Source of the DNA: Methylococcaceae bacterium NSP1-2 | Lineage (GTDB): Bacteria; Pseudomonadota; Gammaproteobacteria; Methylococcales; Methylomonadaceae | DNA: 35,885 nt | Assembly: GCA_002256685.1 (NCBI GenBank) | Contig: NQJH01000001.1 | Coordinates: 1-35,885, forward strand | Direction: 5' to 3' | Shown here: positions 25,085 through 35,885 of the stretch, piece by piece | How the letters are laid out: every line of letters begins with the position of its first letter | Position numbering within the stretch: the stretch's first letter is position 1 | The notes under the pieces: generated by a model | The model's database searches: none | The model's input: only the letters and a program-made list of their open reading frames with translations | What the model was told of the DNA's origin: nothing | Made by a program: the position numbers and the translations under genes

Positions 25085-25363
25085 GTGAGTCAATCATCAA
25101 AAGGCGAATTAATCGTAAAAAGCGTAGCGACGGCTGTCGTTGCAACCACTATTGTAGAAACGGGTCTAGGTTTTAGTAAAACCCTCGCTAAGCAGCCTAT
25201 TATTTTGTTTGGTTTAGGTTTAGTAGCCGGCTATTTTACCCATAAATACCGTAAAGAAATTATCACACTTGCGGGTCATACTACTGAACAAAGCAAAGAT
25301 TTTATCCTGCAACAAAAAAATAATGTCAGCGAGTTGTTGGCAGAAATTCAAGACAATAAATAG
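25085..25363 (+). CDS. Small membrane-anchored protein (DUF5132/YtxH-like), paralogue of 33148..33408
   Basis: KQPIILFGLGLVAGYFTHKYRKEIITLAGHTTEQSKDFILQQKNNVSELLAEIQ; one TM plus amphipathic tail. Confidence 0.75.
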   Translation: MSQSSKGELIVKSVATAVVATTIVETGLGFSKTLAKQPIILFGLGLVAGYFTHKYRKEIITLAGHTTEQSKDFILQQKNNVSELLAEIQDNK

Positions 25364-25453: not shown

Positions 25454-26479
25454 TTACTTATTATTCAAAAGTTTAACTATTTCATCAGCCGCAAGTTTGT
25501 GGGCAACTGGATTCCAATGACCATCCATCGGTAGAAAATCCATGCGTTCGCGCTGTTCATCCCAATGGCGTTTAAACACAGGCTGCATGTCCACTACATC
25601 AAGTTCCTGTTGCAAAGCCAGTTTTGAGAACAATTGACGATCATTTGTATTCCATGACCGTTCACGATTTTTAGAATAAATGGCTTTGCGATCACCATCG
25701 AGCAAAAACACCACGCGGAAACCATTTGCAGCACTTAGCAAGCGAAGCTCTGAAAAATAGTAGTTAAGCACCAACGCTTTTTTTGTTGAGAGGTCGTCCG
25801 TTTTATTAACCTGTGGCGTATTGCCACGAACGGACTTCAATGCTTTCGATGCCCAATCTGGAAACTTCAGGTTGTAGTAAAGGTAACGAATCAATGCTGA
25901 CTTCAAGAGTCGCTTTTTATTAGGCGATTCGGTGTAGGGGTCATGTGTCACAGAGACATCTGTTTCATTAGTCACAAAAAAGCCACTGTGTCCTACGCTA
26001 GGCTTTGAAAGCAGTTGAGATAAATCGAATGGCTCAACAAAGAGTACCACGACAGCAGGTTTAATTTGTGGCGCAAAGTATTTAAGAATGTCCAGCGTGT
26101 CTGCCAAACCATTACCCGAAGCGGCTATTGCCTGAACTTTCTTTGGAAATTTTTCCTCTAAACGCCCTTGAACAGTGTCTGGAAAGTCAAGCATGAAACT
26201 TTCGATATAACTGTCGCCAATAACAAGCACCCCGCCTTTTTCCGATGAATCTGGCGAGTTGTTGAATCCCAGACTATTAGTAGTGCCAGTTCGAGCAGTT
26301 CCCATCGCCCACCCGTGAGACTCAACGTAATCTTGATTTGGAAGACAGCGAGCAAATGGTTTTTCAATGCTGGTTGCCTCCATACGCATACCAGAATTAA
26401 CTGGCAGGAAGCGTAGCAAACCTTCCAGCATGGCAAGACAAACAAGCACACCCAAACTAATACCAAGAAAAAAGCGCAT
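25454..26479 (-). CDS. SGNH/AlgJ-like hydrolase, probable partner of MBOAT O-acetyltransferase
   Basis: N-terminal TM, VLVIGDSYIESFMLDFPDTVQGRLEEKFP (GDS box), C-terminal MDGHWNPVAHKLAADEIVKLL (DxxH block); next to the MBOAT gene. Confidence 0.78.
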   Translation of the reverse strand: MRFFLGISLGVLVCLAMLEGLLRFLPVNSGMRMEATSIEKPFARCLPNQDYVESHGWAMGTARTGTTNSLGFNNSPDSSEKGGVLVIGDSYIESFMLDFPDTVQGRLEEKFPKKVQAIAASGNGLADTLDILKYFAPQIKPAVVVLFVEPFDLSQLLSKPSVGHSGFFVTNETDVSVTHDPYTESPNKKRLLKSALIRYLYYNLKFPDWASKALKSVRGNTPQVNKTDDLSTKKALVLNYYFSELRLLSAANGFRVVFLLDGDRKAIYSKNRERSWNTNDRQLFSKLALQQELDVVDMQPVFKRHWDEQRERMDFLPMDGHWNPVAHKLAADEIVKLLNNK

Positions 26480-26491
26480 AGCGACTGTCAG

Positions 26492-27964
26492 TTAGAAATT
26501 GAAATAGAGAAACTCTGATACACCACGAGTCTCACTAATTGCTAGAAGTATGAAAGTGATAACGAGGGCGAATCCTAGAACCACACCGCCGATACCACCG
26601 TTTAGTCGCTCCTCGTAGGATGGGAGGATGCCTTTACCAAGCATTATATAAGCATTGGGTACGAAGAATGCAATTGCCGCACAAGCAGCAATCCATACAG
26701 CGCACTCGTCAATGTCCATGATTCGATTAATGCCAAGTAAACTGTCACTCGAAGAACCGTTGAATGTCCCCATTGTCATTGCGTGTAGAATGTTGAGGGC
26801 AATATCTATAGAGGTGGCACGAAAGAACACCCAAGAGACGACCACAGCCACGAAGGTCAGTAACCAACCAAGAGAAGTAATGGTAATATTTTGCCTTTCA
26901 CCTAATAGATGGCGAATAGCATGATTGATAATCAAGTAAATGCCATGCAACGCACCCCAGATAACAAACGTCCAGCTTGCGCCATGCCACAAGCCACCGA
27001 GGAGCATAGTCGTCATTAAATTGATATGTCGCCGTGTTGCACCAAGACGATTCCCACCTAGCGGTATATACAAATAATCACGCAGGAAGGTAGAGAGCGT
27101 GATGTGCCAGCGTCGCCAGAAATCAATAATGGATCGCGCCTTGTAAGGTGAATTAAAGTTAATCGGCAGAATAATACCAAACATATAAGACAAACCGTAA
27201 GCCATATCCGAATAGGCTGAAAAATCAAAATAGAGCTGAAAGGTATAGGCAAGTGAGCCGCACCACGCTTCAAGAACAGTAAGATTAGCATAATTAAGAT
27301 CAAATACAGGACCTACAAATTGAGCAACGCCGTCTGCTAGTATGACTTTTTTAAACAACCCAATGATAAAAAATAGCGTTCCAACCACTAAGCGACCACG
27401 AGAAAAAATGTGTGATTCAGCTCGATCAAACTGAGGCATCATGTCTTTGTGATGCAGAATCGGTCCTGCTATTAAATGCGGGAAGTAGGTAACAAACAAT
27501 CCGTAGTTTTCCGCTTTATATTCACGAATTTTCGCCACATGGCAATCGACCAGATAAGCGATTTGCGTAAAGGTGAAAAATGAAATACCAATGGGTAGCG
27601 TGATGCCAAGTGGTGTGTAATCAGCCCCGACCACCCATGCTAGACTCTGGGCAAAGAAATTGAAATACTTGAAAAAGCTCAACAAGCTAAGATTGAACAC
27701 CAGCCCCGTGATTAACGCTATCTTTGCTTTGCGATCGTTTTTCGCTTCCTTTTCTCGGCTAATCCACTGACCTATCAAGTAATTCACTACGATAGAACCC
27801 AGTAACAAGGGCAGGAAATTGATATTCCAGTAAATGTAAAAACCGATGGATGCCAGTAGCAGGAAGACAATAGACAAACGTAAGGAAAATTTCGAAAGGA
27901 GAAAATATCCAAGTAATGCTAAAGGCAAGAAGGCAAAAACAAATAGAAAAGTATTGAATAGCAT
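26492..27964 (-). CDS. MBOAT-family O-acyltransferase (AlgI-like)
   Basis: TPLGITLPIGISFFTFTQIAYLVDCH, FPHLIAGPILHHKDMMPQF, FDFSAYSDMAYGLSYMFGI, DFWRRWHITLSTFLRDYLYIPLGGNR, LLGGLWHGASWTFVIWGALHG. Confidence 0.94.
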   Translation of the reverse strand: MLFNTFLFVFAFLPLALLGYFLLSKFSLRLSIVFLLLASIGFYIYWNINFLPLLLGSIVVNYLIGQWISREKEAKNDRKAKIALITGLVFNLSLLSFFKYFNFFAQSLAWVVGADYTPLGITLPIGISFFTFTQIAYLVDCHVAKIREYKAENYGLFVTYFPHLIAGPILHHKDMMPQFDRAESHIFSRGRLVVGTLFFIIGLFKKVILADGVAQFVGPVFDLNYANLTVLEAWCGSLAYTFQLYFDFSAYSDMAYGLSYMFGIILPINFNSPYKARSIIDFWRRWHITLSTFLRDYLYIPLGGNRLGATRRHINLMTTMLLGGLWHGASWTFVIWGALHGIYLIINHAIRHLLGERQNITITSLGWLLTFVAVVVSWVFFRATSIDIALNILHAMTMGTFNGSSSDSLLGINRIMDIDECAVWIAACAAIAFFVPNAYIMLGKGILPSYEERLNGGIGGVVLGFALVITFILLAISETRGVSEFLYFNF

Positions 27965-32520: not shown

Positions 32521-32760
32521 ATGAATCAGGAATTAGCACAGTCAGACGTTAAAAGAAACAATAGCGGTTCTTTGCTATTGGGAACTGGTTTAGCAGTGGC
32601 ATCGATGATTTTAGTCCCCGCATTGGCTATGCGGCTGGGTTTAGGTGCGAGTTTGACAGGAGCGTTAAGAATCGCATTAATGAAAGCATCAAGTCGTGCC
32701 GTCTGTGGTAGCCCAACAACGCCTAATGAATCAACTTTGTCAGATAACAGTTGTCGCTAA
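32521..32760 (+). CDS. Small hydrophobic protein of unknown function
   Basis: 79 aa, SGSLLLGTGLAVASMILVPALAMRLGLGASLTGALRIALMKAS; purine-rich AGAGGTG before the ATG. Confidence 0.6.
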   Translation: MNQELAQSDVKRNNSGSLLLGTGLAVASMILVPALAMRLGLGASLTGALRIALMKASSRAVCGSPTTPNESTLSDNSCR

Positions 32761-32933
32761 GTCTTGCCATACCAATAAACTTTGTTAATCGTGGAATCTT
32801 CAATAAATTAGATGAATGCTCTGTTACCAGCGGTTTAGGGAATGGTCTCGCTTTCTGTTGTTGTCAAAGGTAAACTTTGTTAGCATAATAAATGAACTAA
32901 CATAAGGAATGGGTTAACTAAATAGGTTTTACC

Positions 32934-33107
32934 ATGAGCGAAGCTAAAAAAACGTGTGATCTTTGCGGCTTGACCGTTGAAGTACCAAATTTCACGTTAA
33001 AAACTAAAGAGGGCGAAAAATCATTTTGTTGCGAAGGCTGTCTAGGTATTTACCAGATGCTACATGAAATTGAAGAGACGAGTGAATCCGACAACAAGCA
33101 GTCGTAA
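32934..33107 (+). CDS. 57-aa Cys-rich metal-binding protein resembling the N-terminal domain of CcoI/FixI-type P-type ATPases (not in the ORF track)
   Basis: My translation: MSEAKKTCDLCGLTVEVPNFTLKTKEGEKSFCCEGCLGIYQMLHEIEETSESDNKQS*; CxxC + FCCxGCxxxYQML pattern; co-directional in a tight small-gene run. Confidence 0.72.
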   Translation: MSEAKKTCDLCGLTVEVPNFTLKTKEGEKSFCCEGCLGIYQMLHEIEETSESDNKQS

Positions 33108-33147
33108 TTATTCGCTACTCATTCACATAATTTAAGAAAAAATAAAT

Positions 33148-33408
33148 ATGAAACACGCTAAAGTAGCTAACGAAATCATTAAAGGGTCTATGACTTCAGC
33201 AACGATACACAGTGGGAGAAGATTGATGGGTAATATTGCTAAACATCCAGTGTTAGTTTTTGGCTTAGGGGTAGCAGCTGGCTATCTGGTTTACAAATAC
33301 CGTAAAGAAATCGTTTCTAGTACGACTAAAGTCGTGGATGCGGGTAAAGATTTTGTCTTACAACAAAAAGAAAATCTGGAAGACATTATTGCGGAAACCA
33401 AGGAATAA
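33148..33408 (+). CDS. Small membrane-anchored protein (DUF5132/YtxH-like), paralogue of 25085..25363
   Basis: KHPVLVFGLGVAAGYLVYKYRKEIVSSTTKVVDAGKDFVLQQKENLEDIIAETKE aligns with the 25085 ORF. Confidence 0.75.
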   Translation: MKHAKVANEIIKGSMTSATIHSGRRLMGNIAKHPVLVFGLGVAAGYLVYKYRKEIVSSTTKVVDAGKDFVLQQKENLEDIIAETKE

Positions 33409-33483
33409 TAAATCCGCACCGCTTAACTCATCATCAATGGATGTCTTTCTGTCAGTTACTGTCAGGGCATCCTTTTTGTTTTT

Positions 33484-34119
33484 ATGACTCGCATCACTAT
33501 GTCTATTCAAAAAGAATTTGTACTGCGTTATCAAATAGACGGGCATGTCAGGTTTCAAATACCCGCGCGGATTTGTGAAACGACTATCGCTAAAGCAATC
33601 ACCGATGGCATTTTGGCAATAGACGGTGTGTATCGCGTCAATCTCTATCGTAACCAACATAAATTGTCGATTCGTTTTCAAGAATCAGTGTGTGATTTTA
33701 AGACACTGGCACGGCAACTATCTGAGTTGCTTGCTGATTTAGAAAAAAACGGTGAGTTTGAGCAAAAAACGGTTGCCGAAACGGGACGAATCTTGGCGTG
33801 GAAAGAACGCGCCAAAGCTAAATTAAATAGTTTTAAAGCCACGCGCTGGGCGAAAGAAAAATACGGCGATGTGAAAGAAACCGTGCAGGCGGCTAAAATC
33901 ATTACTAAGTTGGGTATGAAAAAACCCTCAGCGTTTGTTAATGATCCCGAAAAAGCCATGATTGATTTTTTCAATGATATTTTGGTGCTGTTTCTCATTA
34001 GACTCCATTGGACAAATATCACCCAACAATGGTTATTAAAGCCGCTTAAATATCGTTATGAATGGATGGCTTTATTTTATATGTTCTTCTTATTGGTACG
34101 TTCGCGTAAAAAGAAATAG
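33484..34119 (+). CDS. HMA2-like (Cys-less heavy-metal-associated fold) protein with C-terminal hydrophobic segments
   Basis: GHVRFQIPARICETTIAKAITDGILAIDGVYRVNLYRNQHKLSIRFQE has HMA-like babbab spacing without CxxC; C-terminal WMALFYMFFLLVRSRKKK. Confidence 0.62.
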   Translation: MTRITMSIQKEFVLRYQIDGHVRFQIPARICETTIAKAITDGILAIDGVYRVNLYRNQHKLSIRFQESVCDFKTLARQLSELLADLEKNGEFEQKTVAETGRILAWKERAKAKLNSFKATRWAKEKYGDVKETVQAAKIITKLGMKKPSAFVNDPEKAMIDFFNDILVLFLIRLHWTNITQQWLLKPLKYRYEWMALFYMFFLLVRSRKKK

Positions 34120-34176
34120 TTTTTGGTACGCAGTGAATCACTGTTATTAAGTTAATAACACACGTTGTGCAGGAGT

Positions 34177-34196
34177 AAAACAGCTTTAGCTGTTTT
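34177..34196 (+). terminator. Intrinsic terminator candidate after the HMA2-like gene
   Basis: AAAACAGCT-tt-AGCTGTTTT followed by TT; a second palindrome CCAATAGCT-aa-AGCTATTGG follows at 34201-34220. Confidence 0.5.
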
Positions 34197-34310
34197 TTAG
34201 CCAATAGCTAAAGCTATTGGATTCCTGTCATTGCTTAATACTTGGCTAAAACCCTCGGAGGTTTATCCAACTACCTCGCTACACACACTCACTCTGAGAG
34301 TTCTACAGTC

Positions 34311-35885
34311 ATGGACATGCAAACCTTCACCCCGACACACTACAAGCTCATTCACCAATTAACCAGACGAATCAGAATCATTTCGCCTGTGTTAAAAAAC
34401 GATGCTGAACGCAGCACCATTTTTGAAATCATTCTCAAAAAAAGACCTGAAATAAAAAAAGTTCGTTCAGTCGTTGCCTTGGGTTGTGTGATTATTGAAT
34501 TCGATCCAGCAGGATTGCCGAAAAAGAATTTATTTATTTTACTAGATGCCGTGTTGGGCAATATTGCTCAAAGGCAGGATAGTTCTCACACACCGCATAA
34601 AAAAGTATTCGATGGCAAAGTAAACGAAATAGACCTCGCGGTGGAAGGCATGAGCTGTGCCTCATGTGCCTTGCTGATTGAAATGGTACTCAAGCGTGAT
34701 GCCAGAGTAAAACAAGCCAGCGTTAATTTCGGCACATCCACGCTTACGGTACACGGGCAATTATCCAAAGCCGATGTAGACGAAAAAGTAGCGGGGTTAG
34801 GTTATAAAACCTATGCAATGGACACACTATCGCAACGCAGAAACTTAATAGATAAAGAATACCAACGCATTGCCGATGCTAAACGCCGTTTTATCTGGTC
34901 TAGTGTATTAAGTTTTCCTGTCGTCGTGGTCGGTATGAGTATGCCCAGTACCCGCTGGTTACATTGGATGCAGTTCGCGCTCACCACGCCTGTGGTGTTT
35001 TGGGCAGGTCGGTCATTTTTTATCAAAGCGTGGCGATTAGCCAAACAACGCACGGCGAATATGGATTCACTGATTGCCTTGGGTGTGGGTTCAGCTTACG
35101 GCTACAGCTTACCCGCGCTACTCAATCGCAGAGGACATCTGTATTTTGAAGCAGGCGCTGCAATTATCAGCTTTGTATTATTGGGGCGATTTTTAGAAGA
35201 ACGTGCCAAAGGCAAAGCGGGTGAAGCGATACGCCAATTGGTCGATTTACAACCGCAAACCGCTACCCGCATAACCGATGATAAAGAAACCATTGTTGGT
35301 ATTGATGACATCATCATTAATGACATCCTATTAGTCAGACCCGGTGAAAAAATTCCTACTGACGGTATTGTGATACAAGGGCTATCCACCGTTGATGAAT
35401 CAATGGTGACGGGCGAAAGTGTGCCAGTCATTAAAGACATTGGCAATAAAGTTATTGGCGGTTGTGTGAATGGTAGCGGCGTGTTACGCATACGCGCCAC
35501 CGCTGTCGGCATGGATACCGTATTAGCGGGCATTGTTCACATGGTCGATCAAGCACAATCCACTAAATTACCGATACAAAAACAAGTCGATAGAATTTCA
35601 GCGGTGTTTGTGCCGTCCGTGATGGTGTTGTCTGGATTAACAATGGCAGGTTGGTTATTGGTCGGTGCGCCGTTTGGTTTCGCGTTTGGCAATGCAATTA
35701 CTGTATTACTGATTGCTTGCCCTTGTGCATTAGGTTTAGCAACACCTGCCGCGATTATGGTCGGTGCTGGACAAGCAGCGCGGGAAGGCATTTATATTCG
35801 TAACGGCGAAAGCTTAGAAACTGCCGCTAAACTCAACGTTATCGTATTCGACAAAACGGGAACGATTACCGAAGGCAAACCCAAA
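34311..35885 (+). CDS. Heavy-metal-translocating P1B-type ATPase, 3' truncated by window end
   Basis: My translation from ATG 34311 (absent from the ORF track because no stop is reached): MSCASC HMA motif, TGES (VTGESVPV), CPC TM motif [20 protein letters not shown], phosphorylation motif [12 protein letters not shown]. Confidence 0.93.

Follow-up and report, generated by a model that had tools for sequence, protein, structure and literature searches.

Small membrane partners of P1B-type metal pumps are known from the PacL1-CtpC system, in which a small transmembrane (TM) protein stabilises the pump in membrane patches (PMC9374683; PMC13043812). For copper pumps, a division between CopA1 and CopA2, the dependence of the cbb3 oxidase on CcoI, and the placement of PacS in thylakoids have been reviewed (PMC7558416). 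Copper also controls methane oxidation in methanotrophs, where its intracellular routing is poorly known. Here, we characterize a locus at the end of a 35,885-bp contig of Methylococcaceae bacterium NSP1-2 (this entire contig is termed the window), in which four small genes, termed sm79, tr57, tm86 and hm206, precede a P1B-type ATPase (Table 1). In our best reading, which is drawn by analogy, these proteins and the pump would form a module comparable to the mycobacterial PacL-Ctp effluxosome.

Table 1 Location and supporting evidence of the operon genes, their paralogs and an associated repeat
Feature	Location	Strand	Evidence or remark
sm79, 79 aa, single TM	window 32521..32760	+	KD 19-mer maximum 2.15; dN/dS well below 1
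tr57, 57 aa, stand-alone PF12156 (ATPase-cat_bd) metal-binding domain	window 32934..33107	+	profile match, conserved position
tm86, 86 aa, single TM with GxGxxxG helix, KYRKE, acidic DFVLQQKENLEDIVAE tail	window 33148..33408	+	alignment, hydropathy; paralogs
hm206, HMA fold lacking CxxC at the N-terminus (8-83), then a helical linker and hydrophobic helices at the C-terminus	window 33499..34119	+	profile, predicted fold
211-aa ORF form of hm206	window 33484-34119	+	ORF call
Dispersed palindromic repeat, 87 bp, between hm206 and ATPase	window 34150-34236		46 matches across draft genome; fold -31 kcal/mol
P1B-type ATPase, cut by contig end	window 34311..35885	+	Pfam profiles, motifs, predicted fold, solved-structure matches
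Third tm86 paralog, 92 aa, GTG start	window 25085-25363	+	directly behind glycosyltransferase gene, polysaccharide-type cluster
Second module of tm86 paralog and HMA_2 ATPase	L195 (own genome, contig C343) 4445-7274		ATPase split over two frames (frameshift or assembly error)

The initial annotation had described five co-directional genes (ORFs of 79, 57, 86 and 211 aa followed by the P1B ATPase), and this description was borne out: all five are present, coding and, by dN/dS against relatives, subject to purifying selection. Comparison of the four small genes with their relatives gave dN of 0.03-0.29 and dS of about 0.3-1.6, and their substitutions pile up at third codon positions. Because purifying selection coincides with a gene order that recurs across dozens of genomes, we take the genes to be real rather than chance ORFs. 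Among the 66 loci with enough flanking sequence (family f92 included), 57 carry all five genes in identical order and every one retains the tr57-tm86-hm206 trio; the nine exceptions have no sm79 nearby (6 loci), no ATPase (2) or neither gene (1). With the neighbourhood this strongly conserved, neither of the outcomes that the initial annotation had named as counting against its reading (a neighbourhood not conserved across genomes, or small ORFs assigned to unrelated folds) was observed.

A sixth gene, encoding a DsbD_2/TauE-SafE membrane protein with a GHCxGMCG motif, directly follows the ATPase in 65 of the 68 loci that have sequence past it, and one representative of its products matches DsbD_2 (PF13386, E 2e-38). 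This recurrent position argues for a six-gene operon, the last gene of which falls outside the window, past the contig edge. Judged from comparative sequence analysis, the five- or six-gene set is a conserved operon of Methylococcales methanotrophs. Co-transcription is only putative, since the intergenic gaps measure 90-191 bp and a repeat element lies ahead of the ATPase; matches to consensus promoters and terminators near the genes did not exceed chance. Two insertions were also noted by eye: a HicB/HicA-like pair in the hm206-ATPase gap of two congeneric genomes (L024 2420-2892 and L029 6822-7258, operon orientation), and, in family f92, a possible NifQ-like protein encoded between sm79 and tr57 (L131 5151-5873).

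Across the order Methylococcales, 21 of 41 genomes encode hm206. When the class was sampled evenly, it turned up in 5 of 369 genomes, with a single family, f92, as the sole occurrence outside the order; an equally even sample of the phylum gave 3 of 399, one of them from another class. A scan of GTDB contigs recovered 98 relatives, and among 80 of these the named records are nearly all Methylococcales. The cultured carriers Methylotuvimicrobium buryatense 5G and Methylomonas sp. LW13 make the operon experimentally testable, and its four accessory proteins, of which three could not be placed confidently in any family, provide concrete targets.

The window being the entire contig, the ATPase is truncated, with 525 of about 816 residues (the length in relatives) encoded. 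Its more likely start is the ATG at 34311 (MDMQTF), which sequence comparison favours over a TTG at 34242. The first ~90 residues had been read as HMA-like without CxxC and followed by an MSCASC domain, and this layout held up: residues about 11-90 are HMA_2-like and CxxC-less, at 28.2 bits and so below the cutoff of 30, and a canonical HMA domain with MSCASC occupies residues 105-169, ahead of a TM region with CPC and DKTGT. AlphaFold2 likewise predicted two consecutive alpha-beta domains in the N-terminal part. CPC in TM6 is present in the window copy and invariant in relatives, across which the P1B-1 signature (CPC, NL.WAF.YN and M(I)As.AMA.SSVSV) was recovered; YN (TM7) and MxxSS (TM8) are conserved in full-length relatives, and the window copy ends before both. 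The nearest solved chains are copper ATPases. By these motifs the family is assigned to the P1B-1 Cu(I) class, and Cu(I) transport is predicted. In a tree, the operon ATPases and the HMA_2 paralogs formed one clade (100/100), and the CopA-like pumps encoded in the same genomes fell outside it; a single CcoI was included, and the rows for CcoI, ZntA-like and CopB-like pumps have long branches and unsure placement.

The reading of the 57-aa product as a stand-alone CcoI-type domain is upheld by a PF12156 match above the gathering score (30.7 bits against 27; E 5.4e-7) that covers only positions 1-40 of the 86 in the profile. CDLC and FCC.GC are invariant in the tr57 alignment (the window copy reads CxxC...FCCEGC), and a search for resembling solved structures returned none that was convincing. 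Of the 41 genomes of the order, only 2 carry PF12156 within a long, ATPase-size frame. In the window's own genome, a further stand-alone tr57 paralog (contig C140; L002 411-587) sits beside a 175-aa protein starting MKACESCSASRVEIGKNH, and it was seen in genome G004 too.

Since homologues begin MSIQ, the 211-aa protein is more likely a 206-aa product initiated at the ATG at 33499. Its proposed HMA-like, CxxC-less character agrees with both profile and structure prediction: of the 47 family members, 27 match the HMA_2 profile at E<=1, the best of them at 3.8e-5, and AlphaFold2 gave residues 8-83 a ferredoxin-like HMA fold at pLDDT of about 80-89. Foldseek placed CopZ (2qif) at the top of the matches to this region, together with RAN1 MBD3 and ATP7B; probabilities were about 1.0 and TM by target 0.6-0.74, with a best E of only 6e-3. 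CxxC is absent from the 9 family members compared residue by residue. The conserved hydrophobic helices of the C-terminus are probably membrane-associated. Relative to the ATPase N-terminus, hm206 shows identical predicted element order and topology (AlphaFold2), with an hhalign probability of 3.4% (E 0.013).

Several tm86 relatives have a His/Met-rich N-terminus, a feature almost absent from the window copy. sm79 shares the conserved stretch SLLLGTGLAVASMILVPALAxRLGLGASLTGALRIALMKAS with its relatives, many of which end C-terminally in SCH or SCR, and it matched no family in Pfam. Membership of tm86 in the PacL families DUF1490/DUF6110 was considered and rejected, neither being among the 25 families listed at E<=1 for 34 tm86 members. 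Both in the same genome and in genome G022, a second HMA_2 ATPase is immediately preceded by a tm86 paralog, a pairing that supports one TM partner per pump, as in PacL-Ctp; FtsX-like and ABC-like genes were noted near the former module. Because the third paralog adjoins a glycosyltransferase gene, the tm86 family is not confined to ATPase partners. A similar arrangement of paralog and glycosyltransferase was seen at locus L025, and the window also contains, at 25454-27964 on the minus strand, paired genes for an AlgX-like SGNH hydrolase and an MBOAT acyltransferase, a combination known from polysaccharide acetylation. Overall, the initial annotation is partly supported: its domain identities and five-gene set stand, and its membrane-associated relay, made of domains separated from the pump, is hypothetical. 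It had missed the sixth gene, the analogy to PacL, the P1B-1 motifs and the other pairing of a TM protein with an ATPase in the same genome.

Given the observed gene conservation, domain identities and ATPase class, we consider it moderately probable that the operon encodes a membrane-assembled module for both loading and exporting Cu(I), that is, a P1B-1 pump with its own membrane-tethered accessory complex; the protein contacts, metal binding, direction of use and partner roles are proposed as follows. tm86, and perhaps sm79, would oligomerise via their TM helices, and the resulting assemblies may collect the pump in a patch of membrane or stabilise it there, a role that PacL plays for CtpC. 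tr57, together with the His/Met-rich part of tm86 where present, would bind Cu and hand it over to the ATPase HMA domain, and the CxxC-less HMA parts (hm206 and the ATPase N-terminal domain) may serve as docking or regulatory modules, not carriers. The pump would then move Cu(I) from the cytosol to the periplasm or the intracytoplasmic-membrane lumen, for tolerance or for cuproenzyme supply, and the DsbD_2-type partner could hold the site or the copper in a reduced state.

In two distant lineages (L202 1898-11300 and L203 1833-9986), an ABC/FtsX permease set was observed between sm79 and the tm86/hm206/ATPase genes; the insert also encodes a small conserved protein bearing an RYTRH motif and, in L202, an AhpC/TSA-like one. 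Among the distant homologous loci, a thioredoxin-like gene occupies this same interval in one, and NosL is close by in one (downstream in L202). The FtsX-type ABC, thioredoxin-like and NosL neighbours lean towards cuproenzyme supply over plain detoxification. Only tentatively do we extend the proposed module to a Gram-negative, effluxosome-like copper machine of separate origin from mycobacterial PacL, in which TM scaffolds would cluster the Cu pump in methanotroph membranes and metal-binding or regulatory N-terminal modules would act in trans. If true, pump scaffolds of the PacL type and pump domains that act in trans would occur beyond the PacL families.

Other explanations place the same pump in a more familiar context. 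The P1B-1 motifs of the ATPase and the many relatives of CopA-type pumps would suit plain copper detoxification, with a second CopA and extra chaperones induced by excess copper and no special assembly. However, the same genomes already hold a separate canonical CopA-like clade, and four conserved accessory genes plus DsbD_2 exceed what, from general knowledge, known detoxification operons usually need; we regard this explanation as unlikely. Slightly less likely is a split CcoI/FixI (CopA2-type) pump, whose N-terminal domain would have become the separate tr57 and whose operon would supply Cu to cytochrome oxidase or another cuproenzyme. The CcoI-type identity of tr57, the rarity of PF12156 in ATPase-size frames and the DsbD_2-type protein downstream speak for such a split, but the ATPase groups apart from the one CcoI in the tree, itself a long branch, and no cbb3 genes were seen by eye beside the operon.

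We rate as improbable a dedicated copper loader for pMMO, in which the pump would deliver Cu for the enzyme into the lumen of the intracytoplasmic membranes, in the manner of PacS in the thylakoid. Such a role would account for an operon almost restricted to Methylococcales, whose main enzyme pMMO requires copper, and in a plasmid collection the best matches were mainly heavy-metal ATPases from cyanobacteria, one of which is annotated PacS. Presence of the operon within the order nevertheless does not track pMMO (both in 15 genomes, operon only in 6, pMMO only in 16, neither in 4; Fisher p=0.72), the operon-only count being soft because pMMO genes are often absent from MAGs. That 16 of the 31 pMMO-positive genomes have no operon argues against an obligatory role for it in pMMO function, and family f92 carries the operon and lacks pMMO; a strict operon-pMMO link is unsupported.

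Returning to the membrane-assembled module, its closest parallel is PacL-Ctp of Mycobacterium tuberculosis. As with PacL, tm86 is a small single-TM protein with a small-residue helix-packing motif and a charged cytoplasmic-type tail, it is encoded beside a P1B ATPase, and more than one such pair occurs per genome. The two differ in the spacing of the TM motif (K-x7-G-x2-G in PacL, with K9, G17 and G20, against GxGxxxG in tm86) and in the position of the metal motif, which is C-terminal in PacL, whereas relatives of tm86 carry His/Met N-terminally and the tail is E/K-rich. In addition, the PacL-Ctp pump is P1B6-like (Zn) rather than P1B-1 (Cu), and tr57, hm206 and sm79 are extra partners here.

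The locus shares with CcoI/FixI (CopA2-type) the PF12156 metal domain, a P1B-1-type pump and a DsbD_2-type neighbour. In CcoI/FixI, however, PF12156 is fused to the pump, whereas here it forms a separate 57-aa gene and the pump carries a CxxC-less HMA_2-like domain instead; no ccoNOQP or ccoGHS neighbours were seen at the operon. The combination of CopA with the CopZ chaperone likewise pairs a P1B-1 pump bearing an HMA domain with an HMA-fold partner, although hm206, unlike CopZ, lacks CxxC and ends in a helical C-terminus that is probably membrane-bound. CupA-CopA of Streptococcus pneumoniae, in which a Cu ATPase has a copper partner anchored in the membrane (PMC7558416), may be a further analogue, differing from the present locus with its several small partners. 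Our search of the open-access literature (the operon, PF12156, PF19991 and methanotroph copper ATPases; subscription papers and preprints lay outside its scope) found no earlier description among the hits listed. The parts are of known kinds, and their combination is new.
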